DNA from: Ereboglobus sp.
GTDB taxonomy: Bacteria > Verrucomicrobiota > Verrucomicrobiia > Opitutales > Opitutaceae
Length of the DNA: 64,000 nt
Direction: 5' to 3'
Assembly: GCA_029974595.1 (NCBI GenBank)
Contig: JARKRC010000072.1
Location: 1-64,000, forward strand
Positions 54,377 through 64,000 of the stretch are shown piece after piece. Both the position numbers and the translations under genes were made by a program. Position 1 is the stretch's first letter; each line of letters starts with the position of its first letter. The notes beneath the pieces were generated by a model, which did no database searches, was not told the DNA's origin, and saw only the letters and a program-made list of their open reading frames with translations.

Positions 54377-57241
54377 ATGAAGTCACTCATCATCGCCGAA
54401 AAGCCCTCCGTCGCAGCCGATCTTGCGCGAGCCCTTGGCAAAGTCCCCAAAAAAGGCGATCACTACGAAAACGACCGCTACGTCATCGCATCCGCCATCG
54501 GACACCTCGTCGAACTCCTGATGCCCGAAGACATTGACAAAAAGAAATACGGCTTCTGGCGCCTCGAAACCCTCCCCATCATTCCCAATCAATTCGACCT
54601 CAAGCCCATAGGCGACACCAAGGATCGCTTCGGCCAGCTCAAGAAACTCCTCGCGCGCAAAGATATCGACGAAGTCATCAACGCCTGCGACGCCGGGCGC
54701 GAAGGTGAGCTCATCTTCACTTACATATATCAGCTTGCGAAATCCAAGCTCCCCGTCCGCCGCGCCTGGATGCAAACCATGACCCCTGGAGGCATCCGCG
54801 ACGCCTTCGAGGAAACGCGCCTCCGCACCTCCGCGCAAATGGCCGGCCTCGCCGACGCCGCCCGCTGCCGCTCCGAATCCGACTGGCTCATCGGCATCAA
54901 CGGCACCCGCGCCATCACCAAGCGCATGTTCGGCTCCCGCGCCGGCAACGTCGCCAGCGTCGGCCGCGTGCAAACCCCCACCCTCGCCCTCGTCGTCACC
55001 CGCGAACTGGAAATACGCAATTTCATCCCCCGCAACTACTGGCGCATCACCGCCACCTTCGCCGTCGCCAACGGCGCCTACGAAGGCGTCTTCCAACGCC
55101 CCAACTTCAAGAAGGCCGAAAACGACGAGCACGACCGCATCGACCGCATTTGGGACAAGGCCGACGCCGACGCCGTTCTCGCCGGCTGCCAGGGCAACCC
55201 GCCCGCCGCCGTCACCGAGGAGAAAAAAGCCGCCACGCAAGTCGCTCCCCGCCTCTACGACCTCACCACCCTCCAGCGCGAAGCCAACAACCGCCTCGGT
55301 CTCTCCGCGCGCCGGACGCTCCAGATCGCGCAGGCGCTCTACGAGAAGCACAAGATGATCACCTACCCCCGCACCGACTCGCGCGCGCTTCCCGAGGACT
55401 ACATCCCCACCTGCAAAGCCACCCTCCAGGCCCTCGAAGGCGACCTGGCCCCTCACGCCCAAAAAGCTCTCTCCGAAGGTTATGTGCGCCCCAACAAACG
55501 CATCTTCAACAACGCGCAAATCTCCGACCACTTCGCCATCATCCCCACCGGCTCCGAATACAAAAACCTCGACGACACGGAGGCGAAAGTCTTCGACATG
55601 ATCGCCCGCCGCTTCGTCGCCGTGTTCTATCCCGCCGCCGAATACGACGTCACCACCCGCATCAGCACCATCGCGCAAAAGCACCAGTTCAAAACCGAGG
55701 GCAAGGTCCTCACCAACGCGGGCTGGCTCGCCGTTTACGGCAAAACCGCCATCGACAACGAAGAAAATCAGGGACGCGAAACCCCGCGAAACGGCGAAGC
55801 CGCCAAAAAATCCGCCGCCCTTCCCGCCCTCACCCCCTCCGACAACAACCAGGCCAAAACCCTCGACACCAAACTCCACGCCGAAACCACCAAGCCGCCC
55901 CCTCGCTACACCGAAGCCACGCTTCTCTCCGCGATGGAAGGCGCCGGCAAACTCGTTGACGACGAGGACATGGCCGACGCCATGAAAGAACGCGGCCTCG
56001 GCACTCCCGCCACCCGCGCCGAAACCATCGACGGCCTCATTTACCAGAAATACATGGAACGCGGCGGCGAGCGTCAGCGCGAACTCATCCCCACGCCCAA
56101 GGCCGAGGGCCTTCTCGAATTCCTCTCCGCCGTCGGCGCCGAAGCCCTCACCAAGCCCGACATGACCGGCGAGTGGGAATACAAGCTCCGCCTCATGGAG
56201 CACAACAACTTCACCCGCGAAAAATTCATGCAGGAAATCGTCGATGTCACCAAAGGCATCGTCGATCGCACGAAAAACTTCGAGGAGGACGAATCCACCG
56301 CGCGCATCACCGACATCATTTCCCCGACCGACAACCAGCCGATGAAGGAAACCCTGCGCGCCTACAAATCGCAGGACGGTGCCCTTGTCATCTACAAGGT
56401 CATTACTGGCCGCAAGATCGAGAAAGACGAGGTCCGCCGGCTCGTCGCCAACGGCGAAATCGGCCCGCTCGACGGCTTCGTTTCCCCGCGCACCGGCAAC
56501 CGCTTCCCCTCCAAGCTCCGCATCATCGACGACCCGAAAATCGACGGCCAGAAAAAGGTCGATCTCGATTTCGGCAACAAAATCGATCTCACCGCCCTCA
56601 CGCCCGTCTGGACCGATCCAAAAACCGGCGAGGAACTCTGCGAAGCGCCGACAAACTACATCCTCCGCAAACGAAACGAAAAAGTCGCGGGCGGTTACGA
56701 GCAGACCTTCAGCGTCGGACGCCTCATGTGCCAGAAGCCCATTGAGCCCGCGCAAGCCATAAAACTCGTCACCGAAGGCAAAACCGACCTCATCCGCGGA
56801 TTCACCTCGAAAAAAGGCCGCCCCTTCGACGCCTTCCTCCTGCGCAAAGGCGCGAAAATCGCATGGGAATTCCCGCCCCGCGCCCCGAAAGTCGGCAAGG
56901 ACGGCAAACCCGTCGAACGCAAGGCCAAGGCCGCGCCCGACCTCGCCAAGGCGAAAAAAATCTCCGACAGCAAGGCCCACGAAAACGGCACGCTCTACGA
57001 AACCGCCGGCAGCTACCTCGTCGCCAAGCCCGGCGCGAACGACGAGCCGCGCGTGGTCTTCGAGTGCAAAAAGAAAATCTGCGAAAAGGAAATTCCCCTC
57101 GCCGAAATCCAGCAGCTCCTCGCCGACGGCAAAAGCAACCTCATCGAAGGTTTCGTCTCCAAGCGCGGCAGCCGTTTCAACGCCTACCTCGTCCTCTCCA
57201 AGGACAGGAAAAAAGCCGATTTCGAATTCCCGCCGCGCTAA
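54377..57241 (+). CDS. topB: DNA topoisomerase III (type IA)
   Basis: The 954-residue enzyme relaxes and decatenates DNA. The TOPRIM domain (1-150) has IIAEKPSVAADLA (catalytic Glu8) and NACDAGREGELIF (acidic DxD-type triad). SVGRVQTPTLALV precedes the catalytic Tyr330 in MITYPRTDSRALP. The family's GLGTPATRAETIDGLI is present. The C-terminal 250 residues hold three copies of a unit of about 40-100 residues: LDGFVSPRTGNRF, IRGFTSKKGRPFDAF...EFPPR and IEGFVSKRGSRFNAY...EFPPR, the topoisomerase C-terminal repeat. It is much longer than E. coli TopB because of these. The strong terminator ahead implies its own promoter. Confidence 0.96.
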   Translation: MKSLIIAEKPSVAADLARALGKVPKKGDHYENDRYVIASAIGHLVELLMPEDIDKKKYGFWRLETLPIIPNQFDLKPIGDTKDRFGQLKKLLARKDIDEVINACDAGREGELIFTYIYQLAKSKLPVRRAWMQTMTPGGIRDAFEETRLRTSAQMAGLADAARCRSESDWLIGINGTRAITKRMFGSRAGNVASVGRVQTPTLALVVTRELEIRNFIPRNYWRITATFAVANGAYEGVFQRPNFKKAENDEHDRIDRIWDKADADAVLAGCQGNPPAAVTEEKKAATQVAPRLYDLTTLQREANNRLGLSARRTLQIAQALYEKHKMITYPRTDSRALPEDYIPTCKATLQALEGDLAPHAQKALSEGYVRPNKRIFNNAQISDHFAIIPTGSEYKNLDDTEAKVFDMIARRFVAVFYPAAEYDVTTRISTIAQKHQFKTEGKVLTNAGWLAVYGKTAIDNEENQGRETPRNGEAAKKSAALPALTPSDNNQAKTLDTKLHAETTKPPPRYTEATLLSAMEGAGKLVDDEDMADAMKERGLGTPATRAETIDGLIYQKYMERGGERQRELIPTPKAEGLLEFLSAVGAEALTKPDMTGEWEYKLRLMEHNNFTREKFMQEIVDVTKGIVDRTKNFEEDESTARITDIISPTDNQPMKETLRAYKSQDGALVIYKVITGRKIEKDEVRRLVANGEIGPLDGFVSPRTGNRFPSKLRIIDDPKIDGQKKVDLDFGNKIDLTALTPVWTDPKTGEELCEAPTNYILRKRNEKVAGGYEQTFSVGRLMCQKPIEPAQAIKLVTEGKTDLIRGFTSKKGRPFDAFLLRKGAKIAWEFPPRAPKVGKDGKPVERKAKAAPDLAKAKKISDSKAHENGTLYETAGSYLVAKPGANDEPRVVFECKKKICEKEIPLAEIQQLLADGKSNLIEGFVSKRGSRFNAYLVLSKDRKKADFEFPPR

Positions 57242-57323
57242 ATGCGCATCGGAAAGGGCCAAGGAAGCCGTCGCCGCGTGCCCGTGCCTGGCGCCGGCAA
57301 TGCAACAGGATTCCCGTTGTGTT

Positions 57324-60264: not shown

Positions 60265-60459
60265 CCCGGTGCACATCCGGACAGGCTGGCAAAGCATCTA
60301 AAACGCAAACGGCTCGATCAAATCGACGCCACGCTGCGCGCATGGCAGGATGCGCGTGTTATTTGCAGCATGCGCAGTCGCATCAACCCTCGCCCGCATC
60401 CGCCTCCGGCCCTGCGCCGCGCATCTTCGTCTCTCAATTTTGCAAACATCGATTTCTCC

Positions 60460-61443
60460 ATGAAACTAACCATCAAGGCACCCGCCCTTCCCAACATTCC
60501 CTGGCAGCCGCGCCCCGCCGGCAACGAAGACCTCGTCTGGCGCTACGACGCCAACCCGGTCATCGGACGCCGCCCGCTCCCGCGCGTCACCGGCATCTAC
60601 AACAGCGCCGTCGTGCCCTTCAAAGGCAGGTTCGCCGGCGTCTTCCGCACCGAAGGCATGGACCGCATGCCGCACCTCCACGTCGGGCACAGCGCCGACG
60701 GCATCAACTGGACTTTCAATCCCAAGCGCATCGACTTCGTCAACAAAGACCCTGAAATCACGCGCCACGAATACGCCTACGACCCGCGCGTCACGCCCAT
60801 CGACGGCACCTACTACGTCACCTGGTGCAACGGCTATCACGGCCCGACCATCGGCGTCGCCACCACGAAGGATTTCAAAAAGTTTCACCAACTCGAAAAC
60901 GCCTTCCTCCCCTACAACCGCAACGGCGTCCTCTTCCCGCGCAAGATCAACGGCAAGTTTGCCATGCTCTCGCGTCCCAGCGACACCGGTCACACGCCCT
61001 TCGGCGACATTTTTTATAGCGAGTCGCCCGACATGACCTATTGGGGCAGACACCGCCACATCATGAGCAAGGGCGACGAATGGTGGCAGGGCACCAAAAT
61101 CGGCGCGGGCCCGTCGCCCATCGAGACAAACGAAGGCTGGCTGCTCTTCTACCACGGCGTCATCAACACCTGCAACGGCTTCGTCTATTCGATGGGCGCG
61201 GCGCTGCTCGATCTCGAAAAACCGTGGATGCTCCGCGCGCGCATGAAGGAATCCATCCTCACAGCCGAGGCGCCCTACGAACTCGCGGGGCTCGTCCCCG
61301 GCGTGTGCTTCCCGGTCGGCTGTCTCTGTGACGCGCCCACGGGCCGCCTGGCGATTTACTACGGCGCCGCCGACACCGTCTCCGCGCTCTGTTTCTGCGA
61401 CGCCGGCGAAATCGTCGAAAACATCCTCGCCGCCGGCGCATAG
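60460..61443 (+). CDS. GH130 family glycoside phosphorylase (beta-mannoside phosphorylase-like)
   Basis: The start MKLTIKAPAL removes a non-conserved leader of 30 residues. The 327-residue five-bladed propeller lacks a signal peptide and acts in the cytoplasm. YNSAVVPFKGRFAGVFR, DRMPHLHVGHSADG, the catalytic Asp in YAYDPRVTPIDGTYY, GRNGVLFPRKI-like NRNGVLFPRKI, and KIGAGPSPIETNEGWLLFYHG match GH130 enzymes that phosphorolyse beta-1,4-mannosides to mannose 1-phosphate. It follows a XylR-type regulator and precedes an esterase-like gene. The linkage (Man-Glc, Man-GlcNAc or Man-Man) cannot be settled by eye. Confidence 0.92.
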   Translation: MKLTIKAPALPNIPWQPRPAGNEDLVWRYDANPVIGRRPLPRVTGIYNSAVVPFKGRFAGVFRTEGMDRMPHLHVGHSADGINWTFNPKRIDFVNKDPEITRHEYAYDPRVTPIDGTYYVTWCNGYHGPTIGVATTKDFKKFHQLENAFLPYNRNGVLFPRKINGKFAMLSRPSDTGHTPFGDIFYSESPDMTYWGRHRHIMSKGDEWWQGTKIGAGPSPIETNEGWLLFYHGVINTCNGFVYSMGAALLDLEKPWMLRARMKESILTAEAPYELAGLVPGVCFPVGCLCDAPTGRLAIYYGAADTVSALCFCDAGEIVENILAAGA

Positions 61444-61501: not shown

Positions 61502-63859
61502 ATGAACCTCCGACTGCTCTTCCGGCAAATCACCCTCGCCCTCATTGTCTTTGCGGCGGGAAGCGCGTTCGCAATTGCCGCGCCGCCACCAGCACACGGC
61601 AGCGCGCCCACGCTCGCAGCCACCTCGGAAAGCGTCGATGCGCTCCTCGCCCGTCCGGAACTTTCGGCTTATCGCGGCTGGTTGAAATATCTCCGCGCCG
61701 ACGCCGGGCAAACCGCCGCGCGCGAAGGCCCGCGCAGCAAAAACGCCGTCGAAAAACTGCATCGCCTCGCCGATTGGACTGCGAGCATCGCCGGAAATCC
61801 CAACATTCTCTCCGAGCTTCGCGGCCCGCAGGAATGGGCCTACGAATCCGCAGCCGACGGTTCCGGGCAGCCCTTTCGCATCAACATCCCCGCCGATCTT
61901 CCCGAGACAAATCCCGACCGGCGGCCGCTCGCGCTCAGCCTGCACGGTTACAGCCAGAGCCACAGTGAAAACACTGCGGGCTGGACCGCGCGCGCCAGCG
62001 GCGGCTTCGAAGTCGCCGTGCTCGGTCGCGCCCGCGGCGGCTGGTATCACGCGCTCTCCGAAGCCGACGTGCTCGGCGTCCTAGATTACGTGCTCGCTCA
62101 CTGGCCGGTCGATCCCGCGCGCGTCCACATCGGCGGCGCAAGCATGGGCGGCCAGGGCGCGCTTCGCATCGCCGCGCGCCATCCGCACCGCTTTGCGTCA
62201 GCATTCACGCAATGCGCCAATTTCATGCAGCAGCCCGAGCGCAACCTGCTCGCCATTCCGCTCTATGCCACGCACAGCCGCGACGACTACGTTGTGCCCA
62301 TCATCGAAAACCTCGCCACGCACAACGCGCTGCGAGACGCGGGCGGCCAAAACATTTTTGACGAAACCGACGGCCTCGGCCACGCCGCATGGAACTACGC
62401 CGAAGGCAACCGCCGCGCCCATGCGTGGCGCGACACATGCCGCCTGCCCGCTTCGCGCGCAATCACACGCCTCGACCACACGGCGCTCGACGGCGGCGCG
62501 CGCCGCGCATGGTGGGCCGAAATCATCCAATGGGGCGACGCCCCGCGTCCCGCGCGCTTCATCATCAATGCCGCCGCGGGCAACCGCCTCCACGTCACGC
62601 TCGAAAACATCAACGCCCTGCGCCTCGACCTCGCCGCCTCGCCCGCCGACCGCGGGCAACCGCTTGAAATAATCATCGACGGCAAATCCATGCTCACGCT
62701 CTCCGGGACAATCCCCGAAGCGCTCACACTCTCAAAAGACGAATCGAACGCATGGACGTCTGCTCCTGCCTCGACTGAAACTCTCGCCCTTCCGTCCCAC
62801 ACTCCCGGCGGCGCCGCGCAACTTTACGATGGCACGCCGCTCCTCATCGTCTATGGCACGCGCGGCGATGCAGCCGCCAACAAAGCCATGCGCGCCGCCG
62901 CAATCGCCGCGAGCAAAAGCCCCAATCCTTCGTGGGCGCTTGATTCCGGCGAAAAATCCAAGGACGACGGCGTCCCGCATCACCAGAATCTTTACGGACG
63001 CCTCAATACCAAGGCCGACACCGATGTGACCGATGCCGACATCGACCGCTGCCATCTCGTCCTCATCGGAGACGCCGTGCAAAACGCGCTCGTCGCCCGC
63101 CTCGCCGAAAAACTCCCCGTGCGCCTCGACACCGCCGCGCAAAGCATCATCTGCAGCGACGGCCTCGCATTCCCCGCCGCGCGCCAGACCCTCGCGCTCA
63201 CACACTGCAACCCGCTTTCGCCCGCGCGCCTCATTTACTGGGTCGCCTCGACAGACGCCGCGGGCTATGCGCCCGGAGCCGTCGCGCCCGCGCTCGCCGC
63301 CTCATATTTCAATGCGTTCGACCTCGTCATCACGAGCGCGACCGGCGGACAGCTCACCGCCACCCGTACCTTCGATAGTCGCTGGAACTGGCACTCCGCC
63401 GCCGCCCGCGAAAAATCCCCGCCGCTCCCCGCGGCGCTCGAAGGACAAACCGCGCTCGCATGCGCCATTGCCGAATGCGCGCGCCGCGCCACCGGCGCCG
63501 ATTTTGCCGTTGCGGGCGACATGCTTCCGCTCGGCGCGAAGTCCGTCACATCCGGCGTTACGCGCGTCTCCGACATCGTTAATCTTTTTTATTATGAGCG
63601 CATCGCCGTCATGCGCATGACCGGCGCGGAACTCCTCGCGCTCGACGCCAGGCTCGGCGCGCCCGCTCCCGGCGGCGAATGGCAAAGCCTGCATCCGCGC
63701 CCTGTCTCCGCGCGCATTGAGCGCGACCGTGCCTACGAAATCGCCGTCCCCTACCGCATCATCAAACCGCTCGTCCGCGCCGCGCACATCGCGCCGAAGG
63801 ATTGCCGGCTCGCCGCGCCGCAGCTCGCCCATGCGATTGAGCGACACCTGACTCGCTAA
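61502..63859 (+). CDS. Secreted alpha/beta hydrolase (esterase) fused to a 5'-nucleotidase-C-like tail
   Basis: I chose MNLRLLFRQI because it starts a signal peptide (to about residue 27). Of 785 residues, 120-320 form an alpha/beta hydrolase with LALSLHGYSQS (oxyanion), the nucleophile Ser214 in GGASMGGQGA, SRDDYVVP and a His in DGLGHAAW. A middle region (about 410-580) includes VLIGDAVQNALVARLAEKLP and HCNPLSPARLIYW, as in large planctomycete/verrucomicrobial esterases. From about 600, ATGADFAVAGDML, DIVNLFYYERIAVMRMTGAE and YEIAVPYRIIKP resemble the 5'-nucleotidase C-terminal domain. The fusion is uncommon. It probably deacylates the glycan used by this locus. Confidence 0.75.
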   Translation: MNLRLLFRQITLALIVFAAGSAFAIAAPPPAHGSAPTLAATSESVDALLARPELSAYRGWLKYLRADAGQTAAREGPRSKNAVEKLHRLADWTASIAGNPNILSELRGPQEWAYESAADGSGQPFRINIPADLPETNPDRRPLALSLHGYSQSHSENTAGWTARASGGFEVAVLGRARGGWYHALSEADVLGVLDYVLAHWPVDPARVHIGGASMGGQGALRIAARHPHRFASAFTQCANFMQQPERNLLAIPLYATHSRDDYVVPIIENLATHNALRDAGGQNIFDETDGLGHAAWNYAEGNRRAHAWRDTCRLPASRAITRLDHTALDGGARRAWWAEIIQWGDAPRPARFIINAAAGNRLHVTLENINALRLDLAASPADRGQPLEIIIDGKSMLTLSGTIPEALTLSKDESNAWTSAPASTETLALPSHTPGGAAQLYDGTPLLIVYGTRGDAAANKAMRAAAIAASKSPNPSWALDSGEKSKDDGVPHHQNLYGRLNTKADTDVTDADIDRCHLVLIGDAVQNALVARLAEKLPVRLDTAAQSIICSDGLAFPAARQTLALTHCNPLSPARLIYWVASTDAAGYAPGAVAPALAASYFNAFDLVITSATGGQLTATRTFDSRWNWHSAAAREKSPPLPAALEGQTALACAIAECARRATGADFAVAGDMLPLGAKSVTSGVTRVSDIVNLFYYERIAVMRMTGAELLALDARLGAPAPGGEWQSLHPRPVSARIERDRAYEIAVPYRIIKPLVRAAHIAPKDCRLAAPQLAHAIERHLTR

Positions 63860-63890: not shown

Positions 63891-64000
63891 ATGAATCGCA
63901 AGCAGTTCATCAAACTCGCCGCCACCGCCGCCGCCGCTCCCGCACTCATTCGTGCCGCCGCTTCCCGGAACGCCGGAGCCCGGCCCGCCGCCGCCGATTC
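63891..64000 (+). CDS. N-terminal start of an exported protein with Tat-like signal, cut by window edge
   Basis: Only 36 residues are visible. NRKQFIKLAATAAAAPAL resembles a twin-arginine signal (a single Arg-Lys pair, then a hydrophobic Ala-rich stretch). Such leaders are common on verrucomicrobial sulfatases, oxidoreductases and sugar isomerases. The start codon is 31 bases after the esterase stop, so it is likely in the same operon. Confidence 0.6.
   Translation, partial: MNRKQFIKLAATAAAAPALIRAAASRNAGARPAAAD

Follow-up and report, generated by a model that had tools for sequence, protein, structure and literature searches.

An esterase joined to a 5'-nucleotidase C-like domain in Verrucomicrobiota

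Organization of the locus and domain structure of the fusion protein

The window, i.e. the whole stretch of 64,000 nucleotides analyzed here, contains near its end an open reading frame that runs on the + strand from the ATG at 61502 to the TAA at 63859 and encodes a protein of 785 residues, at the position given for a fusion gene in an earlier note made from the sequence of this DNA. The gene is present in a single copy in the window's own genome. Its parts and its two immediate neighbours are as follows.

60370..61443, +, upstream neighbour, GH130 (mannooligosaccharide phosphorylase family; Pfam PF04041, E 8.5e-63)
61502..63859, +, 785-aa esterase / 5'-nucleotidase-C-like fusion protein (P0001), probably exported (ORF, Pfam, alignment, AF2 model)
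61502..61579, +, probable Sec signal peptide, approximately residues 1-26 (by eye; pLDDT <50 at residues 13-32)
61613..61816, +, N-terminal helical region, residues 38-105 (AF2 model)
61817..62446, +, alpha/beta-hydrolase esterase domain, residues 106-315 (Pfam, PDB sequence match, structure match)
62141..62143, +, codon of Ser214, nucleophile, in GASMGG (invariant in 22 sequences; aligned to GHSMGG of 3wyd)
62285..62287, +, codon of Asp262 (invariant in 22; aligned to Asp of 3wyd)
62381..62383, +, codon of His294, in GLGHAAW (invariant in 22; aligned to His of 3wyd)
62459..62791, +, beta-rich linker domain, residues 320-430 (AF2 secondary structure)
62807..63397, +, middle alpha/beta domain, residues 436-632, no Pfam family (common to tail-less esterases)
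63407..63856, +, 5'-nucleotidase C-like domain ("the tail"), residues 636-785 (sub-cut-off Pfam match, profiles, predicted fold)
63891..64000, continuing to contig position 65006, +, downstream calcineurin-like phosphoesterase, 371 aa, no other Pfam domain (Pfam)

The full-length AlphaFold2 model, computed from an alignment (A2) of the window protein with the 21 relatives described below, has a mean pLDDT of 88.0 and a pTM of 0.89, the latter suggesting that the domains are held in one packed arrangement. It has to be kept in mind that several of the long ORFs among the 22 rows of A2 begin after the first start codon and that one row (L068) lacks approximately the first 95 residues.

The fusion gene belongs to a run of + strand genes, reaching a little past the end of the window, that encode a LacI/AraC-type regulator, the GH130 enzyme, the fusion protein, the calcineurin-like phosphoesterase, a 707-aa protein with no Pfam match at E <= 0.001, a second phosphoesterase, a TonB-plug protein and a GH29 fucosidase, with an MFS_2 sugar transporter located upstream in divergent orientation. 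This neighbourhood points to carbohydrate use. The link is not a general one, since, the fusion gene aside, no neighbour family is common to more than 4 of the 23 loci in a comparison in which the ORFs were picked by a G+C heuristic and some loci are short on one side. The second calcineurin-like phosphoesterase (L031:8992-10810, contig 66991-68809, outside the window) reads in one frame, with its likely C-terminal part in another, overlapping one, as if by a frameshift. As to the composition of the window, 2-kb segments of the first 30 kb have a G+C content of 45-57% (62% at 26-28 kb), those of positions 30001-64000 one of 56-67%, and the cumulative GC skew climbs to approximately 38 kb and falls afterwards. 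A 959-codon open frame at 54383-57262 on the - strand lies opposite a gene for a 954-aa protein (54377-57241), by eye a topoisomerase, and is probably a shadow frame of high-G+C DNA.

The esterase and middle domains

The esterase half of the protein reaches the Pfam cut-offs of three families, namely PF00756 (26.4 versus 22 bits), PF00326 (26.1 versus 22.6) and PF02230 (24.8 versus 23). Ser214, Asp262 and His294 make up a Ser-Asp-His triad with a GxSxGG nucleophile elbow and are invariant in all 22 aligned sequences, so that the alpha/beta hydrolase with a Ser-His site, as read in the earlier note, is upheld. By sequence, the closest solved structures are the C-terminal esterase of LC-Est1 (LC-Est1C, 3wyd; E 3.8e-12) and the esterase 3doh (E 1.7e-8), which have the esterase domain and the triad in common with the fusion protein and whose matches are confined to its esterase part (query 119-320 and 190-288, respectively). 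Esterases and S9 peptidases make up the best 50 structural matches of the full model (Z 19.6-23.0, mostly over residues 103-315), which bear on the esterase domain alone; the predicted esterase domain gives Z 23.0 to 3doh and Z 22.6 to 3wyd, and S9 peptidases match its fold almost as well as feruloyl esterases do. Judged from these alignments, there is little doubt that the protein carries, in conserved form, the triad required for the chemistry of a serine esterase.

The region that follows the linker gives only weak Pfam matches (best E 0.025) and no credible sequence match in the PDB (best E 0.98), and it carries the conserved motifs HTPGG...LLIVYGT and NLYGxL.KADTxVT...LVLIGxAxQN. Its profile matches 12 of 13 tail-less esterases from relatives. 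The nucleotidase-like part, which had been placed earlier at residues 580-785, is shorter than first thought: it covers approximately residues 636-785 (about 150 aa), and residues from about 436 to 635 form the separate middle domain.

Homology of the tail to 5'-nucleotidase C domains

The C domain of 5'-nucleotidases usually serves a metallophosphatase domain. In the window protein no metallophosphatase family, PF00149 included, is matched at E <= 1 in Pfam, in agreement with the earlier note, which had described the tail as lacking that domain. The Pfam score for the tail itself is low: the whole protein scores 13.4 bits (E 0.087) and the isolated tail 17.2 bits (E 0.0058) against 5_nucleotid_C (PF02872), neither of which reaches the cut-off of 23.6. 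With isolated tails searched against Pfam at a maximum E of 10, 5_nucleotid_C is the commonest family, being matched by 10 of the 22 (best E 1.3e-4), and the other 12 give no match to it.

Profile comparisons are considerably more telling. A profile of the 22 tails was run against 1,597 mechanical ORFs of the loci together with their 1,597 reversed sequences, and all its matches at E <= 1 are orthologues, nucleotidase-type proteins or the separate C-domain protein of one locus (L082), with no reversed sequence among them. The best non-orthologous matches are L089 (E 2.9e-8), L084 (1e-6) and L085 (1.7e-5). Alignment of the tails to nucleotidase profiles with hhalign gives a probability of 95.7% over 130 columns for the divergent nucleotidases L084-L087, 91.4 over 100 columns for L088-L089, and 77.9 over only 53 columns for the common nucleotidase group L071-L081. 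In the reverse direction, a nucleotidase profile searched against 211 ORFs from the 23 loci, a set from which the ORF picker had missed the fusion gene of L064, finds 7 of 22 fusion proteins at E <= 0.01 (the window protein at E 1e-5, L050 at E 4.9e-10) and nothing else.

When applied to 384 genomes of the class, the tail profile matches 14 genomes at E <= 0.001, in 15 rows. Five of these are members of the present protein family (the window, G036, G005, G345 and G370), the first four having esterase, middle domain and tail, and the other 10 match both PF00149 and PF02872 at E <= 0.01, with the PF00149 score of L098 and the PF02872 score of L103 falling slightly under the respective cut-offs. 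Among 387 genomes of the phylum, a sample that overlaps that of the class, 16 are matched, and the three outside the class list likewise hold metallophosphatase-type nucleotidases (L105 and L107 by Pfam, L106 by eye). In the sampled Verrucomicrobiota, the tail profile matches the fusion family and otherwise only metallophosphatase-type nucleotidases. Against PDB sequences it finds no 5'-nucleotidase, the best match being a dehydrogenase at E 1.9; members in the PDB are out of reach by sequence alone and are reached by structural search.

The model predicted for the tail alone (alignment A3, starting from residue 630) has a pLDDT of 92.0 and a pTM of 0.88. Foldseek gives it the UshA C-domain fold with prob 1.00 and returns 381 PDB matches for it at E <= 10, of which the 20 at E <= 0.001 all belong to the 5'-nucleotidase family, and the best 50 of the 381 are UshA, CD73, other 5'-nucleotidases, NadN, SoxB and YunD, with SoxB assigned to the family on the ground that the nucleotidase profile finds it, and the entry 9a7h, which we take to be YunD, counted there as well. 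The TM-scores, taken on the query, reach a modest 0.43-0.61, with rmsd 5-8. VIA-align, run on 889 of the 892 chains from Foldseek, places E. coli UshA with adenosine and phosphate first (1ho5 356-532; Z 13.4, rmsd 3.2, 151 residues, 14% identity), and ranks 1-49 are all 5'-nucleotidase family with a lowest Z of 7.7, followed at rank 50 by a procarboxypeptidase with Z 3.0.

The profile and structure comparisons settle what the Pfam score alone leaves short, and on that account the tail can be regarded, in descent and in predicted fold and with near certainty, as a diverged 5'-nucleotidase C domain. Of what the earlier note had proposed, superposition on UshA holds for the predicted model over those 151 residues, with no sign of a different fold; a profile match to 5_nucleotid_C holds in the sense of homology by profile comparison and fails as a single-sequence Pfam score.

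Distribution and origin of the fusion

The fusion, which the earlier note had thought worth looking for elsewhere, does occur in other genomes. Full-length orthologues with 44-50% identity are found in 6 of 56 other relative genomes, with further, weaker matches that cover the query in part. A wider, pattern-based scan, with two peptide patterns against 84,980 species, each represented by one genome, yielded 52 stretches, 21 of which were confirmed as relatives, all Verrucomicrobiota by title; four of these seem to come from genomes already included among the 56, 12 are named Opitutaceae or Opitutia, and the rest Opitutus, Oleiharenicola, Puniceicoccales, or only Verrucomicrobia(e). The best ORF spans esterase, middle domain and tail in all 21, the tail of L067 being confirmed by the tail profile. 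Viral contigs, searched with patterns from the window protein alone, gave no match, and plasmids gave one, which covers 24% of the query in the esterase part only. The domain fusion is real and has so far been seen only in Verrucomicrobiota. An esterase/5'-nucleotidase-C fusion is not reported in those portions of the literature that were searched, including parts of PMC11495043, PMC10454023 and PMC7922932, with preprints and most subscription papers lying outside.

The border of the tail was examined by placing 13 related esterases, from the family and order to which the window belongs, in an alignment with the orthologues. In twelve of them the C-terminus falls at query positions 629-640, or no more than 10 residues beyond 636. 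No middle domain is matched in the thirteenth (L049, 881 aa), whose C-terminus is a different one, and in none of the 13 does the tail profile give a match at E <= 0.1. Since L038 and L040 look near-identical, they are not independent among the 12. These unnamed esterases of approximately 600-1120 aa (e.g. L038, L039, L043, L045, L046) share the esterase and middle domains with the fusion protein, from which they differ in that they stop where its tail starts. Because 12 of the 13 tail-less esterases stop at that point, the tail was added after the middle domain.

In a tree computed with FastTree, the 22 tails form one clade with respect to 20 nucleotidase C domains (support 0.97, with midpoint rooting and a short alignment), which would fit a single capture of the tail, without being strong proof of it. 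By score, the candidate donors that come nearest are divergent nucleotidases from the family to which the window belongs. L084-L087 and L088-L089 are among the non-fusion sequences that resemble the tail most (L089/L095 at E 1.1e-7 for one genome). Unlike the fusion protein, L095 and L096, which are the same genes as L089 and L084, keep the metallophosphatase, matching both PF00149 and PF02872.

One genome (G370; L094 / L108, contig C34:612-1871) has linker, middle domain and tail from query position 349 on, with no recognizable esterase within the 8 kb covered; this partial copy is apparently a truncated copy of the fusion gene or else a tail-bearing protein left after loss of the esterase.

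Conservation of the tail and fate of the base site

In UshA, according to PMC7922932, the base is stacked between Phe429 and Phe498 and the C domain swings the substrate to the metal site by a large hinge rotation; the C domain of CpdB is inactive by itself. Residues at the equivalent positions were counted in the 22 tails and 20 nucleotidase C domains after joint alignment by sequence, at low identity. An aromatic residue stands at the position of Phe498 in a single one of the 22 tails versus 18 of 20 nucleotidases, and at that of Phe429 in 16 of 22 versus 18 of 20, an Asn equivalent to Asn431 is found in 2 of 22 versus 12 of 20, and the glycine loop of the common nucleotidase group occurs in none of the tails versus 10 of 20. 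Since the tails have lost the glycine loop, the Asn and the second of the aromatics that stack on the base, canonical nucleotide binding seems unlikely; given the aromatic residue at the Phe429 position in 16 tails, some ring stacking may persist. As for the Arg that binds phosphate in UshA, the common nucleotidase group of the relatives has an Arg two positions later. Nucleotidases of approximately 450-520 aa with a shortened C domain and no glycine loop also occur in relatives (L084-L087, L097-L100, L103), and the short-C-domain nucleotidases have Trp at the Phe498 position in 6 of 6 in the joint alignment.

Other positions are fully retained. All 22 tails keep the TRxxD Asp, the TG/SG-turn Gly and the YRVA Tyr, and the Gly of the turn is shared with the nucleotidases (20 of 20). 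In A3 only Trp1, Asp62, Gly79 and Tyr116 are invariant, Trp1 lying upstream of the domain, and they form no polar cluster. The tail is the least conserved segment of the protein, with a mean pairwise identity of 0.35, versus 0.65 for the esterase, 0.55 for the linker and 0.56 for the middle domain; this low value fits a scaffold and also relaxed constraint. Taken from the alignments, the fold of the tail appears to be kept and the old base site to be mostly gone. The fusion protein is not a 5'-nucleotidase: the tail shares the fold of the UshA/CpdB-type C domain (PF02872; Z 13.4) and is its homologue, and it differs from proteins of that type in having no metallophosphatase, no second stacking aromatic (one of the two base-stacking positions), no Asn and no glycine loop, and in falling under the family cut-off.

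Possible roles of the tail

The model that we favour, and consider reasonably probable, is that of an exported Ser214-Asp262-His294 esterase that has gained a UshA/CpdB-type C domain, which would now act as a scaffold or specificity wall and not as a nucleotide binder. According to this model, the exported serine esterase would hydrolyze an ester, most likely of a glycan side group, by means of its triad. The C domain of a UshA/CpdB-type nucleotidase would have been gained in one lineage of Verrucomicrobiota, directly after the middle domain, and would pack against the rest of the protein. A part in scaffolding or in substrate recognition is our best guess for the tail; the ligand-binding module that the earlier note had suggested may still apply, for a ligand other than a nucleotide. 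In this protein a nucleotidase C domain has been transferred to a catalytic fold to which it is unrelated; its border is clean, relatives from before and after the event can be traced, and its base site is largely erased, and in that the protein offers a tractable case of a substrate-holding domain changing its job. It is also a warning for automatic annotation, by which such proteins could be labelled nucleotidases.

A bolder version, which we hold as a tentative and rather unlikely possibility, draws on analogy: the captured substrate domain may have become a new module, for example one that recognizes glycans or forms a lid over the esterase active site. Whereas the C domain of UshA moves over the metal site, the tail would then perform a like motion over the active site of the esterase.

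It is improbable that the tail persists by chance, as a passenger on which little constraint acts. Such a history would agree with the lowest identity in the protein and with the presence of just three invariant columns in the tail segment, but it is at odds with the occurrence of the tail in L035 and in each of the 22 sequences aligned (27-43% identical to the tail of the window protein), with the fold positions kept throughout, and with the confidently predicted fold (pLDDT 92).

We find it decidedly improbable that nucleotides or nucleoside-like ligands are still bound by the tail, which would in this case regulate or target the esterase. Its fold is that of the UshA substrate domain and the first stacking position is mostly aromatic, as this would require; the near-complete loss of the Phe498 and Asn431 equivalents, the missing glycine loop and the lack of an invariant polar cluster speak against it.

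A very unlikely alternative is a split 5'-nucleotidase, in which the tail would function in trans together with a metallophosphatase encoded by the downstream gene (from 63891 on). That gene does encode a calcineurin-like phosphoesterase with no further Pfam domain, and a comparable pair exists in a relative (L082, genome G038), where the gene for a 248-aa 5'-nucleotidase C-domain protein (1264-2010) lies directly upstream of one for a 313-aa metallophosphatase-like protein (2028-2969), in what seems to be a split nucleotidase. However, the protein downstream of the fusion is missed by the nucleotidase profile at E <= 0.01, BLAST at E <= 1 finds no relative of it in the ORFs that flank the gene at the other 22 loci, and the base-binding residues of the tail are lost. 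On the grounds of the profile search and of the other loci, the downstream gene was set aside as a partner.

Lastly, that the likeness of the tail to 5'-nucleotidase C domains arose by chance is scarcely credible, for the sub-cut-off Pfam score of the window protein, the lack of a 5'-nucleotidase among PDB sequence matches and the modest Foldseek TM-scores are outweighed by the fold, profile and reverse-profile results, with Z 13.4 for UshA versus 3.0 for the best unrelated entry listed.
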